64,000 nucleotides of DNA from Flagellimonas meridianipacifica. GTDB lineage: Bacteria > Bacteroidota > Bacteroidia > Flavobacteriales > Flavobacteriaceae. The stretch covers positions 1,488,001 through 1,552,000 of the forward strand of contig NZ_PVYX01000001.1 in the NCBI RefSeq assembly GCF_003001695.1. Reading direction: 5' to 3'. Positions 3,663 through 46,211 of this stretch are shown piece by piece. Under the pieces are notes generated by a model. It saw only the letters and a list, made by a program, of their open reading frames with translations. It did not search any database and was not told where the DNA came from. The translations under genes and the position numbers were made by a program. The stretch's first letter is position 1, and the number at the start of each line of letters is the position of its first letter.

Positions 3663-4640
3663 TTAGAAGTTATGCGTTTTAACAATTACATTTCCTGCTT
3701 TATTGCCTTTGTCCACATATTGATGTGCCTCGACAATATCATCTAACGGAAAAACTTTATCAATCACGACATTCAACTTTTCACTTTTCACCAATTCGAC
3801 CAAATACTTCAAATCTTTATTTGATTGGGGAAAGTCTTTGGCCATGATGAATTTCATCTTCTTTTTGAGTTTTGATACGAGCATTCCCAAAGTTGCTATG
3901 GGCTTTGATATGTTGATATAAGTACCTCCTTGTTTTATGGTGTTTTCTGCAATGGAAAATGAACATTTGTCCACGGCCTGAAAGAATAGATCATAGCTCT
4001 GCAGGTCCTCATGCCAGTTTTTGGTTGTATAGTCAATGGCAAAATCAGCACCCAAATCATGGGTCATTTTAAAGTTTTTTGCGCTGCAAACTGCTGTAAC
4101 TTCAAGCCCTTTAAGCTTTGCTAGTTGAATGGCATATACACCCACGCTTCCCGAGGCTCCATAAATCAAAATCTTTTGACCAAGTTCAACTTGGGCTAAA
4201 TCTAAATAATATAAGGCTGTTTTAGCACCGATTGGAATTGCGGCTGCTTCTAACCAACTGATGTTTGAAGGTTTTTTTACAATTGGGCCATTTTCATTGA
4301 CACATAAATACTCTCCATATCCGCCAAATTTTGGCAATGAGGCACCTAGCACTTCGTCGCCAGGCTTAAAACGACTTACTCTTTTTCCACAAGCGGTCAC
4401 TACACCAGCAAATTCGGCTCCTAATATTTGCCGTTTCGGTTTTGTAATACCCATCATCAAACGGGCCGGTAACCACATAAGCATAGGCACCTTAAAACTC
4501 CTAACCCTGTAATCGGCGGCGGCTACCGTACTGGTCCTTACCTCGACCAAAATTTCCTCTTCATTGGGGACAGGTGCCGCCACTTCTTGAATCTTCAAGA
4601 CTTCTGGCGGGCCATATTTTGAGCAAATTGCTGCTTTCAT
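3663..4640 (-). CDS. NAD(P)-dependent alcohol dehydrogenase / quinone oxidoreductase-like (MDR)
   Basis: A 325-residue medium-chain dehydrogenase/reductase. The N-terminal GroES-like domain begins KAAICSKYGPPEVLKIQEV. The Rossmann domain has ILIYGASGSVGVYAIQLAK, the usual NADPH site. The structural and catalytic zinc ligands of true alcohol dehydrogenases are not evident, so it is closer to quinone oxidoreductase/zeta-crystallin enzymes that reduce reactive enones. The ATG at 4640 matches the family N-terminus; an in-frame extension to 4745 would cover the upstream gene. Four bases separate it from the upstream membrane-protein gene. Confidence 0.85.
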   Translation of the reverse strand: MKAAICSKYGPPEVLKIQEVAAPVPNEEEILVEVRTSTVAAADYRVRSFKVPMLMWLPARLMMGITKPKRQILGAEFAGVVTACGKRVSRFKPGDEVLGASLPKFGGYGEYLCVNENGPIVKKPSNISWLEAAAIPIGAKTALYYLDLAQVELGQKILIYGASGSVGVYAIQLAKLKGLEVTAVCSAKNFKMTHDLGADFAIDYTTKNWHEDLQSYDLFFQAVDKCSFSIAENTIKQGGTYINISKPIATLGMLVSKLKKKMKFIMAKDFPQSNKDLKYLVELVKSEKLNVVIDKVFPLDDIVEAHQYVDKGNKAGNVIVKTHNF

Positions 4641-4644
4641 TTGA

Positions 4645-5052
4645 TTAATTGGGATAGGGGTAGGCTTTTTTCGATTCCCATTTAAAAGCTGTCCAAAGTA
4701 TAAAGATTGAGGCAGTGATTTCAAAGAAGAGAAAGAAGAAATCATCCGTATCAGCAGTTTGAATATTGAATATCAAAAATGCCAAGATGATAATGCCAGA
4801 TACCAGATTGAAAATACGGTTGAGCTTTTTCTTCAACACCAAGGAAAGGACTACCATTGCTATCGGGATTTCTGCCAGCACACCGCCAAATAGCATGAGG
4901 CCATCCGTTATTTTCACCCCATTGACATGACCGGTCAATGCTTCTTCCAAAAAATCCTTTGAAGCGAATTCGTGCAGATCGCGAAAAATCAGGTTCATTA
5001 AAATAAAAATCCAAAGTACGGACAGTTTGGTTCTAATATCAATTGAATTCAT
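4645..5052 (-). CDS. Four-helix membrane protein, DUF6326-like
   Basis: A 135-residue integral membrane protein with four hydrophobic segments. It begins MNSIDIRTKLSVLWIFILMN and has LMLFGGVLAEIPIAMVVLS in the middle, a pattern I associate with DUF6326 family proteins. Function is unknown. The ATG at 5052 is preferred to an upstream in-frame ATG at 5100, which would add a non-hydrophobic tail. It is four bases before the alcohol dehydrogenase start, which suggests a shared operon. Confidence 0.65.
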   Translation of the reverse strand: MNSIDIRTKLSVLWIFILMNLIFRDLHEFASKDFLEEALTGHVNGVKITDGLMLFGGVLAEIPIAMVVLSLVLKKKLNRIFNLVSGIIILAFLIFNIQTADTDDFFFLFFEITASIFILWTAFKWESKKAYPYPN

Positions 5053-34321: not shown

Positions 34322-35536
34322 TCAAAAGTTGATTACACTATCTAATGCTTCATCTGTCTCTTTATGAATAAAGTTGGCTTGATAATTTATGGTTGTTGTT
34401 ATTGACGAATGCCTATAAAGCTTTTGAAGCATTTTAATGGGAATTTTATCTTCAGAAATGTTTCCGAAACTATGGCGAGCAATATGCATAGTTACCTTTT
34501 TTGTAATCTCAGCTTTTTCAGCTACTTGCTCTAAGTATTTGTTGAATTTTTTAGTGGCTGTTTTTATTTTGTTATAAACGTCTTTGGGGTTTTTGAAATC
34601 AGCTTTTTTCATTTCGGGAAAGACAAAATCATTATCATGATGCTTGCTTTTTAAGTATTGGTCCAAAATGCTATATGCCTTATTTGGAATTTTTAAAGAA
34701 AGAAGTTTTGAGTTTTTATCCATTCTGTAATGAAGTCTACCATCATAAATATCGCTCCATCTAATCTTTAATACATCAGCCACCCTTATGCCGGCAAAGT
34801 AGAAGCTGAAAAGCCAGACATTTCTGGAGTGAACCTGATTTTCGTTAAGTTCCTCAACTGTTTCTAAGGCAATTACCTCTTCTTTTTCCAGACCGACCTT
34901 TTCAGCTTCCGGAAATTTAATTCGAATTTTATCAGAACCAAAGGGATATAACTTCTTGTCTACAATACCCAATTTTATAGCTCTGTTGTAAAGAGTTCTG
35001 ACTACCACAAAGTTATTGATAACAGACCTTTCGGATACGTTTCTTTTATTTCTGAGATAACTCCTAAATCTTCTAAGAAACTGTTCATCAATTTCTTGAA
35101 AAGTAAGCTGTTTATTTTTTGAAAAACTCAAGACATGGTTAACACGAGCTTTATCCGCAGATAGACGAGCTATTTTATTGTTGGCTTCCAATTCCTTTAA
35201 AAATTCCTCGGCCACTTCAAAAAAAGAAGTTGATTGCGAAGATTTATAGAGCTTCTGTTTAATTTGGTTAGCGGACAAGTCTTTCTTATCGGATTGTAAA
35301 TCTATAAGTGCTTTATTGGCTTCAGAAAGCTCCGTTACCAGCAAACTATTAAGCCTTTTATGATTTGGATGAGATTTTCTTACCCTAATATTTTTTTCAT
35401 CCCAATCTTTCAATTCGATATAGTGACCTATATAATGATAATTGGAACGACGATTTTTTGTTATCCTTATCGCAAGTGGATAGAGCCCCTCTTTGTTTGA
35501 TTTTTTTCTGAGAACTATTTTTGCGTTTGAGGCCAT
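34322..35536 (-). CDS. Tyrosine-type site-specific recombinase / integrase
   Basis: A 404-residue integrase of the Bacteroidota type with an N-terminal Arm DNA-binding domain (LYPLAIRITKNRRSNYHYIG), a SAM-like core-binding domain (about 100-195) and the catalytic domain. The catalytic set is complete: Arg251 (AGIRVADV), His351 and Arg354 (HIARH), His376 (YRHSS) and Tyr385 (INYQ). The gene starts 158 bases from a tRNA-Leu 3' fragment, and reads away from it. NBU1-type elements of Bacteroides also use tRNA-Leu, so this is the integrase of an element attached at that tRNA. Confidence 0.93.
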   Translation of the reverse strand: MASNAKIVLRKKSNKEGLYPLAIRITKNRRSNYHYIGHYIELKDWDEKNIRVRKSHPNHKRLNSLLVTELSEANKALIDLQSDKKDLSANQIKQKLYKSSQSTSFFEVAEEFLKELEANNKIARLSADKARVNHVLSFSKNKQLTFQEIDEQFLRRFRSYLRNKRNVSERSVINNFVVVRTLYNRAIKLGIVDKKLYPFGSDKIRIKFPEAEKVGLEKEEVIALETVEELNENQVHSRNVWLFSFYFAGIRVADVLKIRWSDIYDGRLHYRMDKNSKLLSLKIPNKAYSILDQYLKSKHHDNDFVFPEMKKADFKNPKDVYNKIKTATKKFNKYLEQVAEKAEITKKVTMHIARHSFGNISEDKIPIKMLQKLYRHSSITTTINYQANFIHKETDEALDSVINF

Positions 35537-35693: not shown

Positions 35694-35748
35694 CTGGATT
35701 CAAAATCCAGTTCTTTCGGGAGTGTGGGTTCGATTCCCACCCAAGGTA
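35694..35748 (+). other. 3' fragment of tRNA-Leu(CAA): element attachment site
   Basis: The sequence matches the 3' part of a tRNA-Leu: anticodon stem-loop CTGGA-TTCAAAA-TCCAG (35694-35710; anticodon CAA), variable arm TTCTTTCGGGAGT, T arm GTGGG-TTCGATT-CCCAC, acceptor strand CCAAGGT and discriminator A35748. The D arm and the 5' acceptor strand (expected ACCTTGG) are absent; AT-rich unrelated sequence precedes it. A terminator follows at once. This is the duplicated 3' end left when an element integrates into a tRNA gene; the intact tRNA should lie at the element's other end, to the left and outside this window or lost. Confidence 0.8.
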
Positions 35749-35751
35749 CAA

Positions 35752-35777
35752 AAAGCCTGAACATCAGTTCAGGCTTT
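35752..35777 (+). terminator. Rho-independent terminator of the former tRNA-Leu gene
   Basis: AAAGCCTGAAC (35752-35762), loop ATCA, GTTCAGGCTTT (35767-35777), followed by more T residues. It begins three bases after the tRNA fragment, so it is the native tRNA terminator and marks the right side as original chromosome. Confidence 0.9.
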
Positions 35778-36081: not shown

Positions 36082-37923
36082 ATGAAAAAACTTAACCTAC
36101 TTACTCTAAGTATTGTTTTTATGCTTATGCATTCATGCCAAAAGGAAGAACCCTCAATTAATGTAGTTGCGGACAATCCTAAAACTTATGTTGAAGACAC
36201 AGGCAAAAAAATGGTACTTGGCAAAAAATTGGAAAACCCATATTCAGTCACTAATATGCGCAGGGCACTGATCAAATTGCAAGAGGTGTCACCAGGACTG
36301 GATAAGAAATATAAGGGGCTTACTTTTAAGGATTCTACGGATATACAAACAACCGATGTTTACGTAAAGTTCTGGATAGAAGATGATGAGCAACAAAAGC
36401 TATTACTTGCCGACTCCCTTAATCTGTCCAACACCCCCATGGATATGGAAATCTTGGAAGAAGGCGACTATCTTCCTGCGGAAGACACGGTGAATGTAGA
36501 ATCCAAATGGGCATATACATCGGTTCCTGTGGATTATAAATTCCATCCTGAAGTGAAGTATGAAAAAATTGAAGACTTATTTCTACCTGAACCTGCACAC
36601 ATAGAGGAGGAAGAGGAAGACGAAGAAGAAACCACTACAGTTGGAGGTAAGACCAAGGTTTCCAAGCAATTTCTTTTTGATTTGGAAGATGAAGCCCTGC
36701 GTCTAACAGGCAATTATGAAACCCCGGAAGATGACCAGTATAACAACTCCCCAACAGAAAGACGCAAAAGAAGACCACAAGGCTATGTAAAGGTCAAGAA
36801 TACGGTCACGGGGCGCATGGATCCCGTGGTGGGGGTAAAGATAAAGACCCGTAGATGGTTCAAGTGGGCCAAAGGGTGGACAAACTCCCAAGGATATTAC
36901 AGTGTCAACAGAAGATATAGAAGGCCCGTTCGTTATACGGTGGTGTTCAAGAATACGCGGGGCTTTAAGGTATGGAGATCAGTGGTTACAATATCCTCTG
37001 CCAGATATCGTGCAGGGCGGCGTAGCAATAAAGGGCACAATATGAATTTTTATACCAATAATAGAGCTTGGAGCTGGGCGACCGTGAACAATGCCACGGT
37101 AAAGTATTTGAACTATTGTACAAAGTTTGGCGTGGGCAAACCACATTCCAATCTCAGGATTGTGGCATTGGGCGGCACTGGGCCATCTGCCGCACCCATG
37201 TTGAGAAGGGTTTGGGGCATCTATGGTTTTACCTCAAGATCAAAAGTGAAGAACTTTTTGGCCAAGGCTAACGGCATTAGTATATCGCTAAATACATTGG
37301 CCCATATGCTGAAGTTTATACAACCCGATCTTATTATTAGAGCGGGGGCAAGTAAGGGAACAGGTAGGGTTTTCGAAACTACATTTCATGAGTTGGCCCA
37401 TGCTTCCCATTTTAAAAAGGTGGGCAGCAGTTATTGGATAAAATATATCAACTACATTATCACCTATGGTACATTTAACTCGGGAAGACGTCCTTATGGA
37501 GATGGACATGGCCACAACCATGGTGTTTGTGCATTAGGTGAAGCTTGGGCATATCATTTAGGATATGACTTTACAATTAAAGAGTTCGGTATAAACCAAG
37601 CACCTTTTCCTTTAAACTCTTTTGAGAACTTTGACCCGTTAAAAAAACCAAACAATTTAAATATAGATAGATACAGAAATAATAGTGGTTGGACAGGATG
37701 GATTCCTGGCGGAATAATTCAAGACATTACCGACAACAAAAGGGACTTAGTACGATTGGGATATTACGATGATGTGTCAGGATACTCCATTAAAAATGTT
37801 TATGATGCCTTAGATAGTGGTATTGAATCCCCTCAAAAGTTTAGAGATAGGTTGCTTATTGAAAATGGAAATAGGGATGCAAATGACTTAAAAAAACTAT
37901 TTGAAGCATATTACTGGAAGTAA
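36082..37923 (+). CDS. Large lipoprotein with HExxH metallopeptidase-like motif
   Basis: A 613-residue lipoprotein (lipobox MHS-Cys19). The N-terminal 190 residues are unrecognised and end in an acidic run (EEEEEDEEE, about 174-182). Residues about 230-330 resemble a carboxypeptidase-regulatory/transthyretin-like beta-sandwich rich in Arg and aromatic residues (GYVKVKNTVTGRMDPVVGVK, TNSQGYYSV). The C-terminal part has HELAHASH (His436, Glu437, His440) and, 47 residues on, GEAWA with Glu487, which fits the HExxH...GExxA arrangement of gluzincin peptidases; a His-rich GDGHGHNHG lies between. Peptidase activity is inferred. It heads the cluster of five small lipoproteins, seven bases apart from the first. 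Confidence 0.72.
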   Translation: MKKLNLLTLSIVFMLMHSCQKEEPSINVVADNPKTYVEDTGKKMVLGKKLENPYSVTNMRRALIKLQEVSPGLDKKYKGLTFKDSTDIQTTDVYVKFWIEDDEQQKLLLADSLNLSNTPMDMEILEEGDYLPAEDTVNVESKWAYTSVPVDYKFHPEVKYEKIEDLFLPEPAHIEEEEEDEEETTTVGGKTKVSKQFLFDLEDEALRLTGNYETPEDDQYNNSPTERRKRRPQGYVKVKNTVTGRMDPVVGVKIKTRRWFKWAKGWTNSQGYYSVNRRYRRPVRYTVVFKNTRGFKVWRSVVTISSARYRAGRRSNKGHNMNFYTNNRAWSWATVNNATVKYLNYCTKFGVGKPHSNLRIVALGGTGPSAAPMLRRVWGIYGFTSRSKVKNFLAKANGISISLNTLAHMLKFIQPDLIIRAGASKGTGRVFETTFHELAHASHFKKVGSSYWIKYINYIITYGTFNSGRRPYGDGHGHNHGVCALGEAWAYHLGYDFTIKEFGINQAPFPLNSFENFDPLKKPNNLNIDRYRNNSGWTGWIPGGIIQDITDNKRDLVRLGYYDDVSGYSIKNVYDALDSGIESPQKFRDRLLIENGNRDANDLKKLFEAYYWK

Positions 37924-37930
37924 AAAAATT

Positions 37931-38323
37931 ATGAAAAAGTTTTTTTTAAGCCTAACAATGATTCTGACTTATGCTGCCTGCGATCCAGAATCATGTGTGG
38001 ATGAGGTTTTGGTGAATAGTACAGAAATAGATTTGTTAATCAATTACGTTGGTTCAATGGATGATTCGGACCAAATACTCCTTAAAAGCGATGGAACAGT
38101 ATCAAGAGGTGTTCTATGTGCAATGGGAGGAGTGGTGGTAAACAATTCAATTTATGACTCTATATATATTACAACATCAACGAATGATTTGTTAAAAGTA
38201 TTTAAACCAGATACCCCAGGCAAGAACATTTACAACATAGACCAATATTGGACAATACGAGAGACGAGCAAAAACCATTTTGAGTATACCTACACGATTA
38301 CCAATGAAGATATTGGGAATTGA
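37931..38323 (+). CDS. Small lipoprotein, array member 1
   Basis: A 130-residue lipoprotein (lipobox YAA-Cys17, CDPES). The mature part starts with the array motif VNSTEIDLLINYV, and ends with KPDTPGKNIYNIDQYWTIRE, then FEYTYTITNEDIGN. It is most similar to member 5, with a 39-base identical DNA block (38215-38253 against 40076-40114). The start ATG at 37931 is seven bases after the metallopeptidase-like gene stop. Its last 20 bases are also the first 20 of member 2. The family is not known to me; an envelope role is implied by the lipobox. Confidence 0.75.
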   Translation: MKKFFLSLTMILTYAACDPESCVDEVLVNSTEIDLLINYVGSMDDSDQILLKSDGTVSRGVLCAMGGVVVNNSIYDSIYITTSTNDLLKVFKPDTPGKNIYNIDQYWTIRETSKNHFEYTYTITNEDIGN

Positions 38324-38771
38324 CAAGGTTATCCTGATTGGCCATAGTCTTGTTTTGTTTACTGGCTGCGGCATAACCGAAATAGACCCTCCAAAGGAGT
38401 TGTATTTTGACATTTACCAAAATTCGACAAACAAAGATTTATTTATACTTCTTAAGAATTCAAATATGGAAGATATTAATTCCTTGTTACTTACTGCAGG
38501 CGAGGAAGGTGCACTAAAGAACTCTGAAGTCGCTTTTGTAGGCGGCGATGATCCAGTTCAAGAATATATAGGTGATTTAATTAGTTCAGATTTCATCATT
38601 GAATTATATATTGACAATGGCTTAGTAAAAACATGGACTCCAGCAGACACGGCTATAAAAAGTCCATTCAATAGAAACTCATGGCAAGTGCAAAAACCAA
38701 CTTTATTGCAAAGTGGTTTAGAGCGTGGTAGAATTTTTTTCACCTTAGAAAATGAGGATATTGAGAATTAA
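38304..38771 (+). CDS. Small lipoprotein, array member 2
   Basis: A 155-residue lipoprotein: MKILGIDKVILIGHSLVLFTG-Cys, then GITEIDPP (shared with member 3), the motif YQNSTNKDLFILL, and KTWTPAD...SPFNRNSWQV near the end, finishing FFTLENEDIEN. It starts inside member 1, in the minus-one frame, with a 20-base overlap (ATGAAGATATTGGGAATTGA), and overlaps member 3 in the same way. The ATG at 38304 is the only start that gives a lipoprotein signal. Function unknown. Confidence 0.75.
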   Translation: MKILGIDKVILIGHSLVLFTGCGITEIDPPKELYFDIYQNSTNKDLFILLKNSNMEDINSLLLTAGEEGALKNSEVAFVGGDDPVQEYIGDLISSDFIIELYIDNGLVKTWTPADTAIKSPFNRNSWQVQKPTLLQSGLERGRIFFTLENEDIEN

Positions 38772-39231
38772 CAAGTCTTTGCTGGTTGGCTATAGTCTGT
38801 TAATATTAGTTAGCTGTGGTATTACAGAAATTGATCCCCCAGAGATACAAAGTGTTGTAAAGTTTTTAAATAACTCTGATTCTGATATTAACGTTGTTTT
38901 GACAAATTGGCCCCTATCTGGCAACGGTAATACTGTTTCTTTAAATATTTCAGCAAAACAGGAAATGGGCAATAACGCTTTTGTATTTGAGAATGATCAG
39001 GTGGACGAGTATTTCTCAATCATCGAGGATTCTGAAAATATGAAAATTGAGCTTATTGTGTCAAACCAATTGGTTCGTGAATGGGCGCCTCCAGTTGGAA
39101 GTTTTGGAAAAGAAATAAATAACCCCTTCAATAAGGATTCTTGGAGATTTGAATCACTATCTCCTCCATTTAACAATGATATAGTGGGTAAAATAGTATT
39201 TACAATAACCGATGAAGATATTGGGGATTGA
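38752..39231 (+). CDS. Small lipoprotein, array member 3
   Basis: A 159-residue lipoprotein: MRILRINKSLLVGYSLLILVS-Cys-GITEIDPPEIQ, the motif LNNSDSDINVVL, then LVREWAPPVG...NNPFNKDSWRFES and FTITDEDIGD at the end. Close paralogue of member 2 in the first 30 residues and of member 4 in the last 60. It overlaps member 2 by 20 bases (ATGAGGATATTGAGAATTAA) and member 4 by 20 bases, so reinitiation or coupling should keep expression balanced. Confidence 0.75.
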   Translation: MRILRINKSLLVGYSLLILVSCGITEIDPPEIQSVVKFLNNSDSDINVVLTNWPLSGNGNTVSLNISAKQEMGNNAFVFENDQVDEYFSIIEDSENMKIELIVSNQLVREWAPPVGSFGKEINNPFNKDSWRFESLSPPFNNDIVGKIVFTITDEDIGD

Positions 39232-39772
39232 TAAAGTTTTGACTTTTCCTTTTTTGCGTTGTTTTGTCTGGATGATCGGGGTTAGTTCAATTTTAAGCTG
39301 TGATCCCGAAGAATCATTCGAGGACAACATTTATCAAAGGGTTTTTAGGAACGCTACAGATGAAGAAATAAAGTTAGTGTATCGTAGTTTTGGTACTAAT
39401 GGGCCCGATAATGGAAATACTATAATTGCAGACACCCTCGTTTTACCTCCAAATACTAAAAAAAAAGACTTTTTTGAGCAACGCTACTCTTCCGATGGTG
39501 TCAAAGAGGATGATTTCCAGACTGTTATCGAAACGAATATAAGCATATACAATACAGTTGCTGAAGTTCCTAGGTTTGAGCTTTATATAGGCAATGATTT
39601 CATTAGAGAATGGAGTGGGGTAGCAGATTACTTGGGAAGTGAAGTTAACAGCCCATACAATTTCGACTCATGGGAGATTTTTAAGTTCAAAGAGATTGTT
39701 AATCCTAGTTTTGGGCTATTTGTTTATGGAGAAATAGTATTTACAATAACGGATGAGGATATTGGAAATTAA
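39212..39772 (+). CDS. Small lipoprotein, array member 4
   Basis: A 186-residue lipoprotein, the longest of the set: MKILGIDKVLTFPFLRCFVW, lipobox ILS-Cys, DPEESFEDNIYQ, the motif FRNATDEEIKLVY, then FIREWSGVAD...NSPYNFDSWEIFK and IVFTITDEDIGN. The overlap with member 3 is ATGAAGATATTGGGGATTGA, with member 5 ATGAGGATATTGGAAATTAA. The last 40 bases are almost the same as those of member 3, which points to duplication by exchange near the junctions. Confidence 0.75.
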   Translation: MKILGIDKVLTFPFLRCFVWMIGVSSILSCDPEESFEDNIYQRVFRNATDEEIKLVYRSFGTNGPDNGNTIIADTLVLPPNTKKKDFFEQRYSSDGVKEDDFQTVIETNISIYNTVAEVPRFELYIGNDFIREWSGVADYLGSEVNSPYNFDSWEIFKFKEIVNPSFGLFVYGEIVFTITDEDIGN

Positions 39773-40184
39773 AAAATACCACCTTTTAATCTTTCTGATG
39801 ATTTTAAGTGGTTGCGACCCAAGTGAAAGTCTTGATGCATTGTTGGAAAATGCTACCGATAGTGATTTAAGAATCCATTTTATAAGTGCTATTTTGCTAT
39901 CTGAGTTTATCGATAATGCTGAAATCATTAATGTAGAATCAATGGATAGCCAAGACTATCCACGAATTGGGGTAGCGGAAGGAATAGGTCAGGCAGGCTT
40001 GTCACTCTCAGTCTTTGATTCTATCTACATTTCAAATAATGCTAACGAAATATTGAAGATTTACAAACCGAATAGCCCAGGCAAGAACATTTACAACATA
40101 GACCAATATTGGACGGTACGGGAGACGGGTAAGAACCATTTTGAGTATACCTATATGATTACCGATGAGGATATTAGCAATTGA
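39753..40184 (+). CDS. Small lipoprotein, array member 5
   Basis: A 143-residue lipoprotein: MRILEIKKYHLLIFLMILSG-Cys-DPSES, the motif LENATDSDLRIHF, and KPNSPGKNIYNIDQYWTVRE then FEYTYMITDEDISN at the end. It pairs with member 1 rather than with its neighbour. Its final 20 bases (ATGAGGATATTAGCAATTGA) still contain the in-frame ATG and would start MRILAIDK, but no cistron follows; the convergent gene ends 12 bases on. The array may therefore have lost a sixth member. Confidence 0.75.
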   Translation: MRILEIKKYHLLIFLMILSGCDPSESLDALLENATDSDLRIHFISAILLSEFIDNAEIINVESMDSQDYPRIGVAEGIGQAGLSLSVFDSIYISNNANEILKIYKPNSPGKNIYNIDQYWTVRETGKNHFEYTYMITDEDISN

Positions 40185-40196
40185 TAAAATGTTAGT

Positions 40197-41060
40197 TTAC
40201 TTTTTTACACTGATGAGAACTGCTTCACAACTTCTTAGGTAGGAATTCAAGGTAATGGTTTCTGATTTTTTGTCGCTGGTGATTTCAACTGAAACCGTGT
40301 TTGGAGATACTTCCCCTAAATTATGGGCATATAATAAAAAGTCATTTGCTTTTTCCGAGTCTAGTTCAATGTCAAATTCTTGGTGGTCATTTGTCAACAA
40401 ATGTTTGGAGAGCACCAGATCTCCATTGAGATATATGGAAACGATATCGCCATCCTCTTCTTGATGGTCCCACACTTTGACCTTTAAACGCTCACTATCA
40501 AAGGTCAAGTTTTTGACATAGGATATTCTGCGACCCTCAAACTCCTTTGGAAGTGGAGGACTGGGGGTTGGTTGATTTCTTGTTTTTTTCTTTGTAACCT
40601 TTGAGGGAGTTGCATTGCTTTTGGCTAATTCATACTCCTTTTTTCGTAAGTCAGCTTCCCTGTTCCTGATTGAGAAAAAACCAGTGGCGTATTTAGCAAT
40701 TTGTTCTTTATTGTTTGGAAACAACTCAATGCCCATTACTTGATAATTGTCCCCTGAACCCACATTTTTGGCAAGTCTGATTCCCATGGCACCTCCACTA
40801 TTTTTGAACCTGCCCAACTCTTGTACCACGGTTTTATTCCGTAGCAAAAAGAAACGAATGGACTTCGAAGTATCAATATTTTGGGTTTTCCATTGTAATT
40901 CAGCCGGTTCATTGGTTTCCCAAACAGTTGAACTAATAGGATAGGTTATGGTAATGGTAGATTTGTTCTGCGCCGAACTTTTTTGGGGATGAATTGCCAC
41001 ACAAACAAAGAGGGAAACAAACCATACTACTCTAGAGATTGATTTTCCAAATTTTTTCAT
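40197..41060 (-). CDS. Exported protein with Kre9/KNH-like beta-sandwich domain
   Basis: A 287-residue protein with a signal peptide (to about residue 31). Residues 33-135 resemble the Kre9/KNH-like domain (ITITYPISSTVWETNEPAELQWKT, then LAKNVGSGDNYQV). A basic, proline-rich linker (TKKKTRNQPTPSPPLPKEF) leads to a second beta-sandwich (WDHQEEDGDIVSIYLNGDLVLSK) that recurs in flavobacterial surface proteins. It is convergent with the lipoprotein array, with 12 bases between stops. No partner is clear. Confidence 0.7.
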   Translation of the reverse strand: MKKFGKSISRVVWFVSLFVCVAIHPQKSSAQNKSTITITYPISSTVWETNEPAELQWKTQNIDTSKSIRFFLLRNKTVVQELGRFKNSGGAMGIRLAKNVGSGDNYQVMGIELFPNNKEQIAKYATGFFSIRNREADLRKKEYELAKSNATPSKVTKKKTRNQPTPSPPLPKEFEGRRISYVKNLTFDSERLKVKVWDHQEEDGDIVSIYLNGDLVLSKHLLTNDHQEFDIELDSEKANDFLLYAHNLGEVSPNTVSVEITSDKKSETITLNSYLRSCEAVLISVKK

Positions 41061-41357: not shown

Positions 41358-41801
41358 TTATTGAAAATTAACTGAACTAAAGTCGATATCGAATTCAAAG
41401 CACCAAATACTAAAACTATTTATTTCATCCAAGGTCCTGCCTTCGGGTAAGAAGACAGTTAATGTCTCATCTTCGAATCTTCGACCATTTAGACGCTCAC
41501 TTAGGCTTATTCCCTCATCGAAGTTGCCATTATTGGCACCATAAACACTAACAGCAGGGCCGAAACCATTGTAAAAGAAATTCGTAAATCGAATTTCGCA
41601 GTCTGAAACAATGGTGACAGTTCCTCGCACACCATAAGTTGTACTGACCGGAAGTTCTCGGGATTCACCTACCAAAGGATGTGTTGAATCACACTCTTGA
41701 GATTGTGGTACTTCGTTAGAAAGGGAAACGGAGTCATCACCAACATCACACCCTACAAGTATGAATGCCGAAATGATTAATAAAAAAGAATATTTTTTCA
41801 T
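41358..41801 (-). CDS. DM13 domain lipoprotein
   Basis: A 147-residue lipoprotein (lipobox LVG-Cys18). The mature part fits the DM13 domain: GVRGTVTIVSDCEIRFTNFFYNGFGPAVSVYGANNG, then SERLNGRRFEDETLTVFLPEGRTLDEINSFSIWCFEFDIDFSSVNF, including the conserved WC near the end and a second Cys in the middle. DM13 domains have been proposed to bind a redox cofactor or take part in electron transfer. It stands alone, divergent from the large T9SS locus. Confidence 0.8.
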   Translation of the reverse strand: MKKYSFLLIISAFILVGCDVGDDSVSLSNEVPQSQECDSTHPLVGESRELPVSTTYGVRGTVTIVSDCEIRFTNFFYNGFGPAVSVYGANNGNFDEGISLSERLNGRRFEDETLTVFLPEGRTLDEINSFSIWCFEFDIDFSSVNFQ

Positions 41802-42071: not shown

Positions 42072-45000
42072 ATGATTCAAATTTTAGACCATACCAAAAA
42101 CAGAAACATTGCTTTGTTTTTACTGGTCGTTCTGGGCACTTTTTATTTGGGTTTCGGACAATGTACCTCAGAGGCTGGTCCAAACCAGACATTGAATCAG
42201 GGGACCCCTGTTTTCTTAAATGCCACTACTCCAACGGTTGGAACAGGCACATGGACTCAAATTTCTGGGCCTACAGGTATTTCTTTTGATAATGCCAACA
42301 ATGAAAACACGGAAGTTTTTGGAATTACTGCGGGAGATTATGTTTTTCAATGGACCGTTTCAGATGGAGTTTGTGTTCCTGCTTCAGATACCGTGGAAAT
42401 ATCCGTTTTAGGGGTTGATTTGGAACTTGACCTTAGTGCTTCCGATTTGAATCCTGGTATTGGGGATGTGGTTACTTTCACGGTTAACATAAGAAATAAT
42501 GGAGATTTAAATGCTACTGGAGTCTCCGTAGAAAATCTTGTCCCTTCGGGATATGGTGGCATTTCAGCAATTAGCAATGGAGGCACCTTTAGTTTTGTAT
42601 CCAACACAGTTTCATGGACGGGTCTAAGCATAGCTTCTAGTGGAAATGTCGATCTTACGTTTAATGCCACCGTTCAGACCCCAACAGGAACAGCTGGAGA
42701 ATTCACGCATATAGCTGAAGTAACGAACAGCGATCAATTTGATACCGATAGTATCCCAAATAATGATGATGGTGATCAAAGTGAGGATGATGAAGACGCT
42801 ATCACTGCTACACCTCAACAGGCAGATTTGTCTTTGACCAAAATTGTGGTGGACAACGATGTTGCCCCTAATGTGGGTGAAGAAATAAGTTTTGAAATTA
42901 CAGTTACGAACAGCGGTCCAGATGACGCTACCAACGTTCAGGTGGTTGACCAACTGCTTTCAGGATTTGATTTTGTACTCTATAGTGCAACTAGCGGAGT
43001 CTATGATGAAACAACTGGATTTTGGCAGGTGGGAACCATCGCCAATGGGGCTTCAGAAACTTTGATTATTGATGTTTTGGTTAATGCTTCTGGCTTATAT
43101 ACCAATACCTCACAAGTTATCGCTTCAGATGGTTTTGATATCGACTCAACACCTAGCAATGGAGTATCCTCAGAGGATGATCAAGACGATGTGGCCGTCA
43201 ATCCGGTTCCGGTGGTCGACCTTTCATTATCGAAAACTGTTGATGATAGTAATCCTAATGTGAATACTAATGTGGTTTTCACACTCACCGTTACCAATGA
43301 TGGCCCAAATGATGCGACCAATGTCGCAGTAACCGATCAATTGCCATCTGGGTTTACTTATGTTTCTGATGATGGCGCTGGGGCATACGTCAACACATCC
43401 GGGGTTTGGACGGTTGGTAACCTTACGAACGGAGCTTCTACTACTTTGAATATTACAGCTACCGTAAACACGACAGGTATTTACACCAATGTCGCTGAAG
43501 TTACGGCTCAAGACCAAGTGGATTCGGATTCCACACCGAACAATGGAATCTCGGCTGAAGATGATCAGGATGATACTTCTGTCAATCCTGTTCAAATAGT
43601 GGATGTATCAGTAACTAAGACAGCAGATGATTTAACTCCAAATGTGGGGGACCCTATTGTTTTTACAGTATCGGTAACCAATGATGGTCCAAGCGATGCG
43701 ACCAATGTGGTAGTAACCGATTTCTTAGCCTCTGGGTACGATTTTGTAAGCGCGACGCCAACGACCGGGGTCTATGAGCCTTTAAATGGCTCTTGGACCG
43801 TAGGGAATCTCGCTAATGGTGCAACCGAGACGATTAGTATTACGGCAAATGTGCTTGCCAGCGGAGACTATACCAACACCGCTGAGTTAACGGATTTAAA
43901 CGAAACGGATATTGATTCGCAACCTGCCAACAACGATGATACGGAAGATGACCAACAGACCATAAATCCAGTTCCTGTTTCGGTATCTGATTTGGTCTTG
44001 AGAAAGTCCGTGGATAATCTGACACCTTTTGTTGGGGATGAAGTGATATTTAGCATCAGCATCAGTAATGATGGTCCAAGTGATGTCACCGGAGTTGAAG
44101 TGCTTGATCTTCTTCCTTCAGGATATACTTATGTATCCAATTCAAGAACTGCTGGAGTGTACAATCCAGTAAGTGGCATCTGGGAATTAAATGGCGGTAT
44201 TCCAAATGGAACTACTGAGACCTTGAATATTAGGGCCTTGGTGAATCCAACGGGGGATTACTTTAATGTGTCCGAAGTTTTTGCTTCCGATAATTTTGAC
44301 CCTAACTCAACACCCAACAATAATGTACTGGCTGAAAATGACCAAGATATAGCGGGAACAACACCTTTGCCTTCATCGGATTTGAGCTTGCAAAAAACGG
44401 TGGATAACGAATTCCCTGATGTTTTGGACAATGTGGTCTTCACCCTTACCCTGGTCAATGATGGTCCAAGCGATGCCACTGGAGTGGTAGTATTGGACCT
44501 ATTGCCATCAGGATATACCTATGTTTCTGATGATTCAGGAGGTAACTACAATTCAACTACTGGTGAATGGAATATAGTAACCCTCGCAGGAGGCGGTACA
44601 ACAATTTTGAATATTACCGCGGTGGTGAATCCCACTGGAAACTATTTGAATGTTGCTGAGGTTATTTCGGTTATTCAGCAGGATCCCGATTCCTCACCAG
44701 GAAATAATGTGCTCTCTGAAGATGATCAAGATGAACAATCTACCACCCCAAGGATATTGACCGATATTTCTGTATCAAAGACTGTAAATGATTTAACACC
44801 ATCTGTAGGGAATCAAGTCACTTTTACCGTTACAGTCAATAATGCAGGCCCCAATGATGCGACCAATCTTGTAATTGAAGATGTTTTAGCTTCTGGCTAT
44901 GCGTTTGTAGCCGCAGTTCCGTCTTTGGGTACTTACGATAATTTTACTGGTGCTTGGGCTCTGGCAACTTTGGCAAATGGAGCAACGGAGACCCTTCAGA

Positions 45001-46211
45001 TTACAGCTACGGTACTTCAAAGTGGTAATTATGCCAATACGGCCGAGCTGATTGCTTTGGACACCTTTGACCCAGATTCTACACCAAATAACAATCTAAT
45101 TTCCGAAGATGATCAAGATACGGTTGTTCCTGTACCCAATGGACAAGCGGACCTGTCCTTGACCAAAGCGGTAGACAACCAAACACCAAATGTGGGTGAT
45201 GTAGTTGAGTTCGCATTGAACTTGACCAATGATGGCGCAAGTGATGTATCAGGCGTTATGGTTACCGATGTACTTCCCGGAGGATTTACATTTCAATCGG
45301 CGGTGGCGACAGCGGGGATTTATCAACCTTCAACGGGGCTATGGTCAATAAATGGGTCAATTCCCAATGGAACTACCGAAACATTGATCATTTTGGCAAC
45401 GGTAAACCCACCCACAGGGAATACTGAAGAATATTTGAATGTTGCTGAAATAACGGCAAGTGATTTTGCAGATCCGGATAGTAACCCAAACAGTAGTTTG
45501 GACCAGGATGATTTGAACGATGGTCTCCCAGATGACGATGAAGCTACGGTCCAAGTTACTCCCCAAACCGTGGACATTGGTCTACTAAAAGCAGTGGACA
45601 ATCCTACTCCGACAATTGGGGGAGAGGTGACCTTTACAATTACAGTTTCCAATCAGGGAAGTTCTACCGCTACGAATGTCGGTATCGAAGAGACTCTCCC
45701 TTCTGGATATCGATTTATTTCCTCGCAAGTGGACAATGGAGTTTATGATGAATCTTCTGGTTTTTGGGAGGTAGACCGATTGGACCCTCTGGAAACGGCC
45801 AGCCTGACTTTGACCGTTGAAGTACTGGATGAGGATGATTACCTAAACATTGTAAGCCTGTCATTCGTAGACCAATTTGATACCAATGACACCAATGATC
45901 GTGCGGAAGCTTTTATTGAACCTTCATGCTTGACCGTGTACAATGAGTTTTCTCCGAATGGAGATGGTGTGAACGAGACGTTCACAATAGATTGTATTTC
46001 CAGATATCCCAACAATGTTCTCCAGGTATTTAACCGATGGGGAAACATAGTATTTGAACAACGCTCATACAACAACGATTGGGATGGAACTTCCAATGGG
46101 CGAGCCACGGTGCAGAAAGGTCAGCAATTGCCAGTAGGCACATATTACTATGTGCTGGATTTAGGAGACGGCTCATCGCCAAGAACGGATTGGTTATACA
46201 TAAACAGATAA
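42072..46211 (+). CDS. Giant DUF11-repeat surface protein with T9SS type B sorting domain
   Basis: A 1379-residue exported protein. Order: signal peptide (to about 35), a PKD-like domain (TSEAGPNQTLNQGTPVFLNA...), nine DUF11 repeats of about 125-130 residues (each starting like DLSLTKTVDDxTPNVGD and containing TNDGPSDATNV), and a gliding-motility/T9SS type B C-terminal domain (VYNEFSPNGDGVNETFTI, LQVFNRWGNIVFE, WDGTSNG, LPVGTYYYVLDL). Most repeats end in an Asp-rich stretch such as DSTPNNGISAEDDQDD, a likely calcium site. Secretion is through the type IX system and attachment to the surface; the PorP/SprF and OmpA proteins downstream are the usual partners. The palindrome at 42040 may control it. 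Confidence 0.92.
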   Translation: MIQILDHTKNRNIALFLLVVLGTFYLGFGQCTSEAGPNQTLNQGTPVFLNATTPTVGTGTWTQISGPTGISFDNANNENTEVFGITAGDYVFQWTVSDGVCVPASDTVEISVLGVDLELDLSASDLNPGIGDVVTFTVNIRNNGDLNATGVSVENLVPSGYGGISAISNGGTFSFVSNTVSWTGLSIASSGNVDLTFNATVQTPTGTAGEFTHIAEVTNSDQFDTDSIPNNDDGDQSEDDEDAITATPQQADLSLTKIVVDNDVAPNVGEEISFEITVTNSGPDDATNVQVVDQLLSGFDFVLYSATSGVYDETTGFWQVGTIANGASETLIIDVLVNASGLYTNTSQVIASDGFDIDSTPSNGVSSEDDQDDVAVNPVPVVDLSLSKTVDDSNPNVNTNVVFTLTVTNDGPNDATNVAVTDQLPSGFTYVSDDGAGAYVNTSGVWTVGNLTNGASTTLNITATVNTTGIYTNVAEVTAQDQVDSDSTPNNGISAEDDQDDTSVNPVQIVDVSVTKTADDLTPNVGDPIVFTVSVTNDGPSDATNVVVTDFLASGYDFVSATPTTGVYEPLNGSWTVGNLANGATETISITANVLASGDYTNTAELTDLNETDIDSQPANNDDTEDDQQTINPVPVSVSDLVLRKSVDNLTPFVGDEVIFSISISNDGPSDVTGVEVLDLLPSGYTYVSNSRTAGVYNPVSGIWELNGGIPNGTTETLNIRALVNPTGDYFNVSEVFASDNFDPNSTPNNNVLAENDQDIAGTTPLPSSDLSLQKTVDNEFPDVLDNVVFTLTLVNDGPSDATGVVVLDLLPSGYTYVSDDSGGNYNSTTGEWNIVTLAGGGTTILNITAVVNPTGNYLNVAEVISVIQQDPDSSPGNNVLSEDDQDEQSTTPRILTDISVSKTVNDLTPSVGNQVTFTVTVNNAGPNDATNLVIEDVLASGYAFVAAVPSLGTYDNFTGAWALATLANGATETLQITATVLQSGNYANTAELIALDTFDPDSTPNNNLISEDDQDTVVPVPNGQADLSLTKAVDNQTPNVGDVVEFALNLTNDGASDVSGVMVTDVLPGGFTFQSAVATAGIYQPSTGLWSINGSIPNGTTETLIILATVNPPTGNTEEYLNVAEITASDFADPDSNPNSSLDQDDLNDGLPDDDEATVQVTPQTVDIGLLKAVDNPTPTIGGEVTFTITVSNQGSSTATNVGIEETLPSGYRFISSQVDNGVYDESSGFWEVDRLDPLETASLTLTVEVLDEDDYLNIVSLSFVDQFDTNDTNDRAEAFIEPSCLTVYNEFSPNGDGVNETFTIDCISRYPNNVLQVFNRWGNIVFEQRSYNNDWDGTSNGRATVQKGQQLPVGTYYYVLDLGDGSSPRTDWLYINR

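Follow-up and report, generated by a model that had tools for sequence, protein, structure and literature searches.

Behind a gene for a peptidase-like lipoprotein, the window (the 64,000-nucleotide stretch of the Flagellimonas genome G000 analyzed here) carries five small lipoprotein genes joined by dual-coding overlaps, and across related loci the first lipoprotein behind the peptidase varies in step with the C-terminal part of that enzyme. Judging from the comparison of loci, we lean toward the reading that the locus encodes a polymorphic effector together with a homogeneous polyimmunity array, that is, a set of cognate and spare lipoprotein inhibitors. Two undescribed protein families would thereby be placed in an effector-immunity frame.

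Five small lipoprotein genes with 20-nucleotide junctions

The five small ORFs occupy window positions 37931 to 40184 on the + strand, and a lipobox cysteine is present in all of them (5/5). Named by similarity, they are A1 (37931 to 38323; class A, array position 1, the inferred cognate partner of the peptidase), B1 (38304 to 38771) and B2 (38752 to 39231), both of class B, C (39212 to 39772), related to the lipoprotein that leads the G033 allele (92% nucleotide identity in the mature middle), and A2 (39753 to 40184; class A), the mature middle of which is 97% identical at the nucleotide level to the last gene of the G033 array. The structure model of A2 is a beta-strand one, with a mean pLDDT of 74. 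Exact ORF coordinates bear out an initial annotation in which consecutive genes overlapped by 20 bases at all four junctions (38304 to 38323, 38752 to 38771, 39212 to 39231, and 39753 to 39772, all +). The shared junction word reported there had the right length of 20 nucleotides but the wrong spelling; the correct form is ATGARGATATTG followed by three bases and ATTRA, and the word as first written, with four dots and hence 21 bases, has no match in the genome. The junction words in the window are ATGAAGATATTGGGAATTGA, ATGAGGATATTGAGAATTAA, ATGAAGATATTGGGGATTGA, and ATGAGGATATTGGAAATTAA. Likewise, the protein motifs described as common to the five genes are present but looser than described, B1 having NSW rather than DSW, and the array tails read NEDIGN, NEDIEN, DEDIGD, DEDIGN, and DEDISN instead of one uniform EDIGN.

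In B1, B2, C, and A2, the ATG inside the overlap is the sole ATG that gives a full signal peptide, and gene C has a further internal ATG nine residues ahead of the cysteine. An unused cryptic start behind A2 opens a vestige of 25 codons (MRILAIDK...; 40165 to 40242, +), and the array of the related genome G004 likewise ends in a vestige, of 24 codons. Among the 57 window ORFs of at least 150 aa, an ATG lies at -20 in five (three of them array genes by coordinates) and at -17 in one. When 71 genomes were searched with a joint pattern of 21 bases, one mismatch being allowed, the reversed control gave no match; the pattern itself matched four times in G000 (at the end of the last gene and at all joints but the second, which is too divergent for the pattern), six times in G004 (6/6 in the array), three times in G033 (two in the array), and once each in G008 and G054.

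On its upstream side, the peptidase array lies just outside an apparent integrated island of ~66.9 kb (window 1 to 35754; G000:C1 1456793 to 1523754), the ends of which are an intact tRNA-Leu(CAA) (1456793 to 1456875) and a copy of the 3' part of that tRNA (window 35696 to 35754). The copy adjoins a recombinase gene (34322 to 35536, -), which is near the array, belongs to the neighboring island, and is presumably a tyrosine recombinase gene. Downstream, window positions 41358 to 41801 (-) encode a lipoprotein in which Pfam recognizes a DM13 electron-transfer domain (E value, 9.1e-15), and positions 42072 to 46211 encode a very large repetitive secreted protein of 1379 aa near the array, with what we take to be a gliding/T9SS-type C-terminus; its counterpart in G033 is a 3517-aa frame (locus L017, 5444 to 15997 in reversed coordinates).

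The peptidase-like lipoprotein and its distribution

The gene ahead of the array (36082 to 37923, +) encodes a lipoprotein of 613 aa with zinc-metallopeptidase motifs and the mature N-terminus CQKEEP. An HELAH zinc-binding motif occupies residues 436 to 440 (37387 to 37401, +; invariant columns H436, E437, and H440), and E487 (37540 to 37542, +), also an invariant column, is the candidate for the third ligand; the HExxH motif, the downstream E, and the lipobox Cys are invariant in 16/16 aligned relatives. The structure model has a mean pLDDT of 31, too low to judge a zincin fold. No Pfam match above the cut-off was found for the peptidase, and its best PDB profile match, a WLM-domain metalloprotease, was not significant (E value, 0.51). 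None of the small-lipoprotein and peptidase members scanned had a significant match in Pfam, NCBIfam, or PDB, in agreement with the initial annotation, which knew of no described family. Among known toxin and immunity families in Pfam, none rose above the cut-off, Imm25 being weak (14 vs 25 bits).

Relatives of the peptidase occur in 29 of 71 genomes of the host genus (E value of ≤1e-15), in at least 8 of 299 genomes of the family (≤1e-20), and in at least 4 of 395 genomes of the phylum (≤1e-10); the latter two counts include the window's own genome and are lower bounds because the first three to four candidates were scored in most genomes. Apart from the own genome, the phylum relatives comprise one from the same family, one from a different family within the class, and one from elsewhere in the phylum. 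The loci analyzed comprise 47 with a peptidase gene, whole or broken, and two with a C-terminal fragment only. A small lipoprotein frame stands directly behind the peptidase in 42 of the 47, where "directly behind" denotes a lipoprotein start, picked by lipobox and by eye, within the interval from 50 nt upstream to 63 nt downstream of the peptidase stop; the following lipoprotein is of another kind in L062 and L063 and runs off the contig in L060. No lipoprotein was found at the peptidase in the other five loci (L032, L033, L035, L048, and L052), so a partner is not always needed. A similar FDYW tail is found in four of these five peptidases, and genes which we take to resemble the suf (Fe-S) cluster adjoin L032, L033, and L035. 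Seen from the side of the lipoproteins, the link to the peptidase that the initial annotation had suggested holds up: class A to D lipoproteins occur in 15 of the 71 host-genus genomes, and 13 of these 15 carry the peptidase too. The remaining two are G361, with a shortened D gene and without the peptidase, and G006, whose genome is in 310 contigs and whose intact A gene lies 0.5 kb short of a contig end, so that absence of the peptidase is not proven.

Covariation of the peptidase C-terminal part and the first lipoprotein

Peptidases were cut at HExxH, and the N-terminal part, the C-terminal part, and the first mature lipoprotein were compared across 38 of the 42 loci (L042, L060, L062, and L063, being shifted, truncated, or of another kind, were excluded); for broken peptidase genes, only the piece bearing the C-terminal part was compared. 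With the N-terminal part controlled for, lipoprotein similarity tracked that of the C-terminal part (partial r = 0.64, n = 38; converse, 0.26), and none of 2000 permutations reached this value, the maximum being 0.14. Within the host genus alone (30 of the 38 loci), the partial r was 0.67 versus a converse of 0.30, again with 0/2000 permutations. As the permutation ignores relatedness, the direct comparison of the window with G033 is the cleaner case. Here, the N-terminal parts are 89% identical, the C-terminal parts 44%, and the first lipoproteins 32%, and identity per 40-residue segment falls from 78 to 100% before about residue 460 to 17 to 47% after it. Beyond this point, the G033 peptidase is 57 to 67% identical to that of G007, and the first lipoprotein is of class A in the window but of class C in both G033 and G007. 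By these identities, the swapped part of the window peptidase runs from about residue 460 to its end (37459 to 37923, +).

The same holds at the level of classes. The N-terminal part does not split them (mean similarity of 0.64 within YYW, 0.76 within DWP, and 0.66 between), whereas both the C-terminal part (0.66, 0.81, and 0.46, respectively) and the first lipoprotein (0.46, 0.57, and 0.29) do. With classes assigned by eye and B and C counted as one, the class of the first lipoprotein matched the C-terminal class in 14/14 loci over three classes, YYW going with A (4 loci), DWP with C or B (5 loci), and NNWKD with D (5 loci). The extra lipoproteins belong to classes that lead other alleles, namely, B and C in the window, C and B in L022, D in L019, and A in G033. 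There are two exceptions: in G005, B precedes C despite a C-terminal part 83% identical to those of C-first loci, and between L028 and L031, C-terminal parts that are 89% identical accompany first lipoproteins that are 60% identical.

The pairing could in part be due to linkage, as one recombination tract can carry a gene end together with its neighbor. In the extreme form of this argument, adjacent genes simply travel together in such tracts and the class match records shared history without any physical pairing, which would suit the position of the peptidase end next to the first lipoprotein gene and the obvious recombination tracts at the locus. However, one breakpoint lies inside the peptidase gene, three alternative pairings (nine loci at one site) agree in class throughout the 14 loci, and the later array genes are shuffled, and we therefore consider linkage alone an improbable explanation.

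Detached C-terminal fragments and broken peptidase genes

Detached C-terminal fragments of the peptidase were found beside lipoproteins in L027, L036, L050, and L051. In L027, the full gene is accompanied by an additional C-terminal fragment, behind which a lipoprotein of its own is encoded; in L036, a fragment lies beside the full gene and the lipoprotein follows 1.2 kb on, with a reverse-strand and presumably transposase-like ORF between them (4221 to 4997 in reversed coordinates, - strand); and in L050 and L051, C-terminal fragments and lipoproteins occur with no N-terminal part within the 13 kb read. At least nine loci (L017, L020, L021, L026, L042, L044, L047, L049, and L061) have a broken or shortened peptidase frame, and all nine retain at least one open lipoprotein frame, although sequencing errors are possible among these.

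This last observation bears on the view that the lipoprotein is a partner and not an immunity protein, i.e., a chaperone, anchor, specificity subunit, or preferred substrate of an enzyme that serves its own cell in nutrition or surface remodeling. The same strict neighborhood and pairing would be seen in that case, peptidases without a lipoprotein exist, and at one site the module lies behind a TonB-receptor-like gene. At this site, nine loci seen to both ends carry three alternative alleles between the ends of what we take to be a TonB-receptor-like and a katG-like gene. The module's neighbors differ at several other sites, though, so the TonB-receptor-like gene is not part of the module; moreover, open lipoprotein frames persist at loci with a broken peptidase frame, and a subunit role would not readily account for the extra, non-matching paralogues. 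We thus regard a partner role as rather unlikely and retain inhibition of the peptidase as the preferred reading.

Export signals and location

The sequence C-X-K-(D/E)2-X is described as the optimal surface-export signal of lipoproteins in Capnocytophaga, and SDDFE as the export consensus of F. johnsoniae, in PMC5080379; in Bacteroides, signals of this kind also direct lipoproteins into vesicles (PMC6222051). The N-terminus CQKEEP of the window peptidase fits this signal, and among the 16 peptidases the exact optimum occurs in 7, K at +3 in 10, and E at +4 in all 16. In the first lipoproteins, K at +3 was found in 0/38, with the cysteine chosen automatically and sometimes wrongly, and some small lipoproteins start with CWPKD, in which K is shifted by one position from the optimum, or with several acidic residues. 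These signals suggest that the peptidase is on the surface and, more weakly, that the partner lipoproteins may be periplasmic.

The initial annotation had seen in the five genes a co-expressed panel of variant surface proteins. Such a panel, of antigens or of decoys for phages or predators, would account for lipoproteins that are tandem, variable, and recombining and have conserved ends, but it leaves the tight link to the peptidase and the covariation unexplained, and K at +3 is absent from the first lipoproteins and present in most of the peptidases (other export signals are possible). Because the C-terminal part of the peptidase varies with the lipoproteins, specific partners or inhibitors fit better, and a surface panel appears very improbable.

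Exchange of units and origin of the overlaps

Lipoprotein arrays at the same site were found in G004 (seven genes) and G033 (locus L017; three genes), where every neighboring pair is joined by a 20-nt overlap, making 12/12 junctions with the four of the window. The same tRNA-Leu(CAA) precedes all three loci, with its 3' part retained in the window. Such joints at one site in two relatives rule out an assembly artifact, a concern raised in the initial annotation; single genes with unrelated ends had been its other concern, and single genes are indeed common, but their ends are related. The gene order is A B1 B2 C A in the window, A B1 B2 A B3 C A in G004, and C B3 A in G033, the counts of 5, 7, and 3 coming from genomes of different species and not from strains of one species. 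From this order, whole lipoprotein units are evidently gained, lost, and traded in register at the joints, as expected of the exchangeable cassette first proposed. Exchange also cuts within units, combining signal peptides with different mature parts. In its signal peptide, window C matches G033 A at 95% and G004 A2 at 92% identity, the joint and signal-peptide segments standing ahead of unrelated mature middles (44%), whereas window C and G033 C share 92% identity in the mature middle and 40% in the signal peptide. Similarly, positions 39163 to 39306 around junction 3 are 96.5% identical to G033 (L017, reversed) 4570 to 4713, where a class A gene, in place of C, follows the counterpart of the junction, and in 15 pairs of class A genes, tails are 80 to 96% alike and middles 53 to 97%. 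Behind one peptidase in L053 (G295, a different genus) come six frames for lipoproteins (A, A, B, C, another, and an A that is cut off), with spacers of 11 to 263 nt and no overlaps, in a stretch that includes N bases.

The overlaps can be traced to the protein tail. The tail [DN]-E-D-I... hides a +1-frame ATG whenever its first codon is GAT or AAT, and in another class (SCWP...CDGPCN), the tail [DN]-G-P-C does likewise. Across 18 loci, 49 lipoprotein genes were surveyed, among them the five of the window but none of the classes ending in ELP, and an out-of-frame ATG lay at -20 or -17 in 43; 16 of these are used as overlaps, 12 of 20 nt and 4 of 17 nt (L028, L043, L047, and L050), and 27 are unused. 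Since the hidden ATG is used through two different tails, the overlap was made at least twice from a pre-existing by-product of a conserved tail. In G005 and G007, the frame that begins at the hidden ATG crosses the spacer without a stop and ends with the next gene (198 and 177 codons), which is plausibly the state before deletion. Spacer deletions would then have joined the hidden out-of-frame ATG of the tail to the signal peptide of the next gene, giving the 20-nt joints, which may now couple translation and would supply near-identical segments for in-register exchange. The locus illustrates, base by base, how a conserved protein tail can give rise to overlaps repeatedly and how these can go on to act as exchange joints. 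The joint is nonetheless not the essence of the system, as it arises from the conserved tail and is absent from most relatives, in which the genes are spaced.

At L028 5636, the frame of the 17-nt overlap is open into the next gene, versus closed after 7 codons at the near-identical L031 4920. The spacers behind the C and B genes of L019 and L020 are open into the next gene in the frame of the cryptic ATG, and both contain a hairpin-like repeat (CAGCCCCTTTAGGGGCT in L019).

Proposed function and comparison with known systems

Under the favored effector-immunity reading, the peptidase, on the cell surface and perhaps on vesicles, would act on envelope proteins of neighboring cells, and each small lipoprotein would bind the C-terminal part of the matching peptidase and block it. 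The first lipoprotein would guard against the cell's own allele, the others being spares against alleles of kin. If true, this would be a polymorphic system with specificity in half of one enzyme and with immunity carried by lipoproteins. More tentatively, a surface and vesicle-borne peptidase with an allele-specific, substrate-side half may constitute a new kind of antagonism or kin recognition in marine Bacteroidota, with dual-coding joints through which guard lipoproteins could be gained, lost, or traded in register and still be translationally coupled. To our knowledge, the known weapons of Bacteroidota are mostly T6SS effectors and pore formers. Tandem paralogous lipoprotein genes also make up Lpl of Staphylococcus aureus, a Gram-positive bacterium, and we know of neither a peptidase partner nor dual-coding joints there.

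Closer parallels are found among polymorphic toxin systems as characterized by Zhang et al. (2012, PMC3482391). Shared features are (i) a conserved N-terminal and a diversified C-terminal part, (ii) detached C-terminal cassettes, and (iii) a small neighboring gene that changes with the C-terminal part; in the classic case, however, a separate toxin domain is swapped, whereas here it is the second half of an enzyme whose core is constant. The Tox-MPTase1-5 zincin toxins listed in the same text are likewise HExxH metallopeptidases in polymorphic loci, some of them in Bacteroidetes, but typically stand behind RHS repeats, and the peptidase described here has no Pfam match above the cut-off. SitA/SitI of myxobacteria, as presented in PMC5562445, also combine a lipoprotein effector of variable C-terminus with a small downstream gene; the C-terminal domains of SitA are nucleases delivered via outer membrane exchange (TraA), in contrast to a peptidase here, and the partners here are lipoproteins in arrays. 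The rAID orphan immunity arrays of Bacteroidales (PMC12247911) resemble the present one in holding divergent spare immunity genes with a recombinase, but they answer T6SS effectors, while this array lies behind its own putative effector.

The nearest likeness is to homogeneous polyimmunity loci, which PMC3482391 describes as tandem same-strand immunity paralogues with small spacing and a number that varies between strains, several of them adjoining XerC/D-type recombinases, and for which a role as back-up against non-kin toxins is proposed. Tandem same-strand paralogues, minimal spacing, differing number, and a recombinase nearby all recur in our locus, and it is this fit, together with the recombinase, that points to a polymorphic effector. 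The locus differs in its lipoprotein partners, Imm65 being the sole lipoprotein immunity protein that Zhang et al. give for their collection, and in its dual-coding joints, and its toxin is a putative one.
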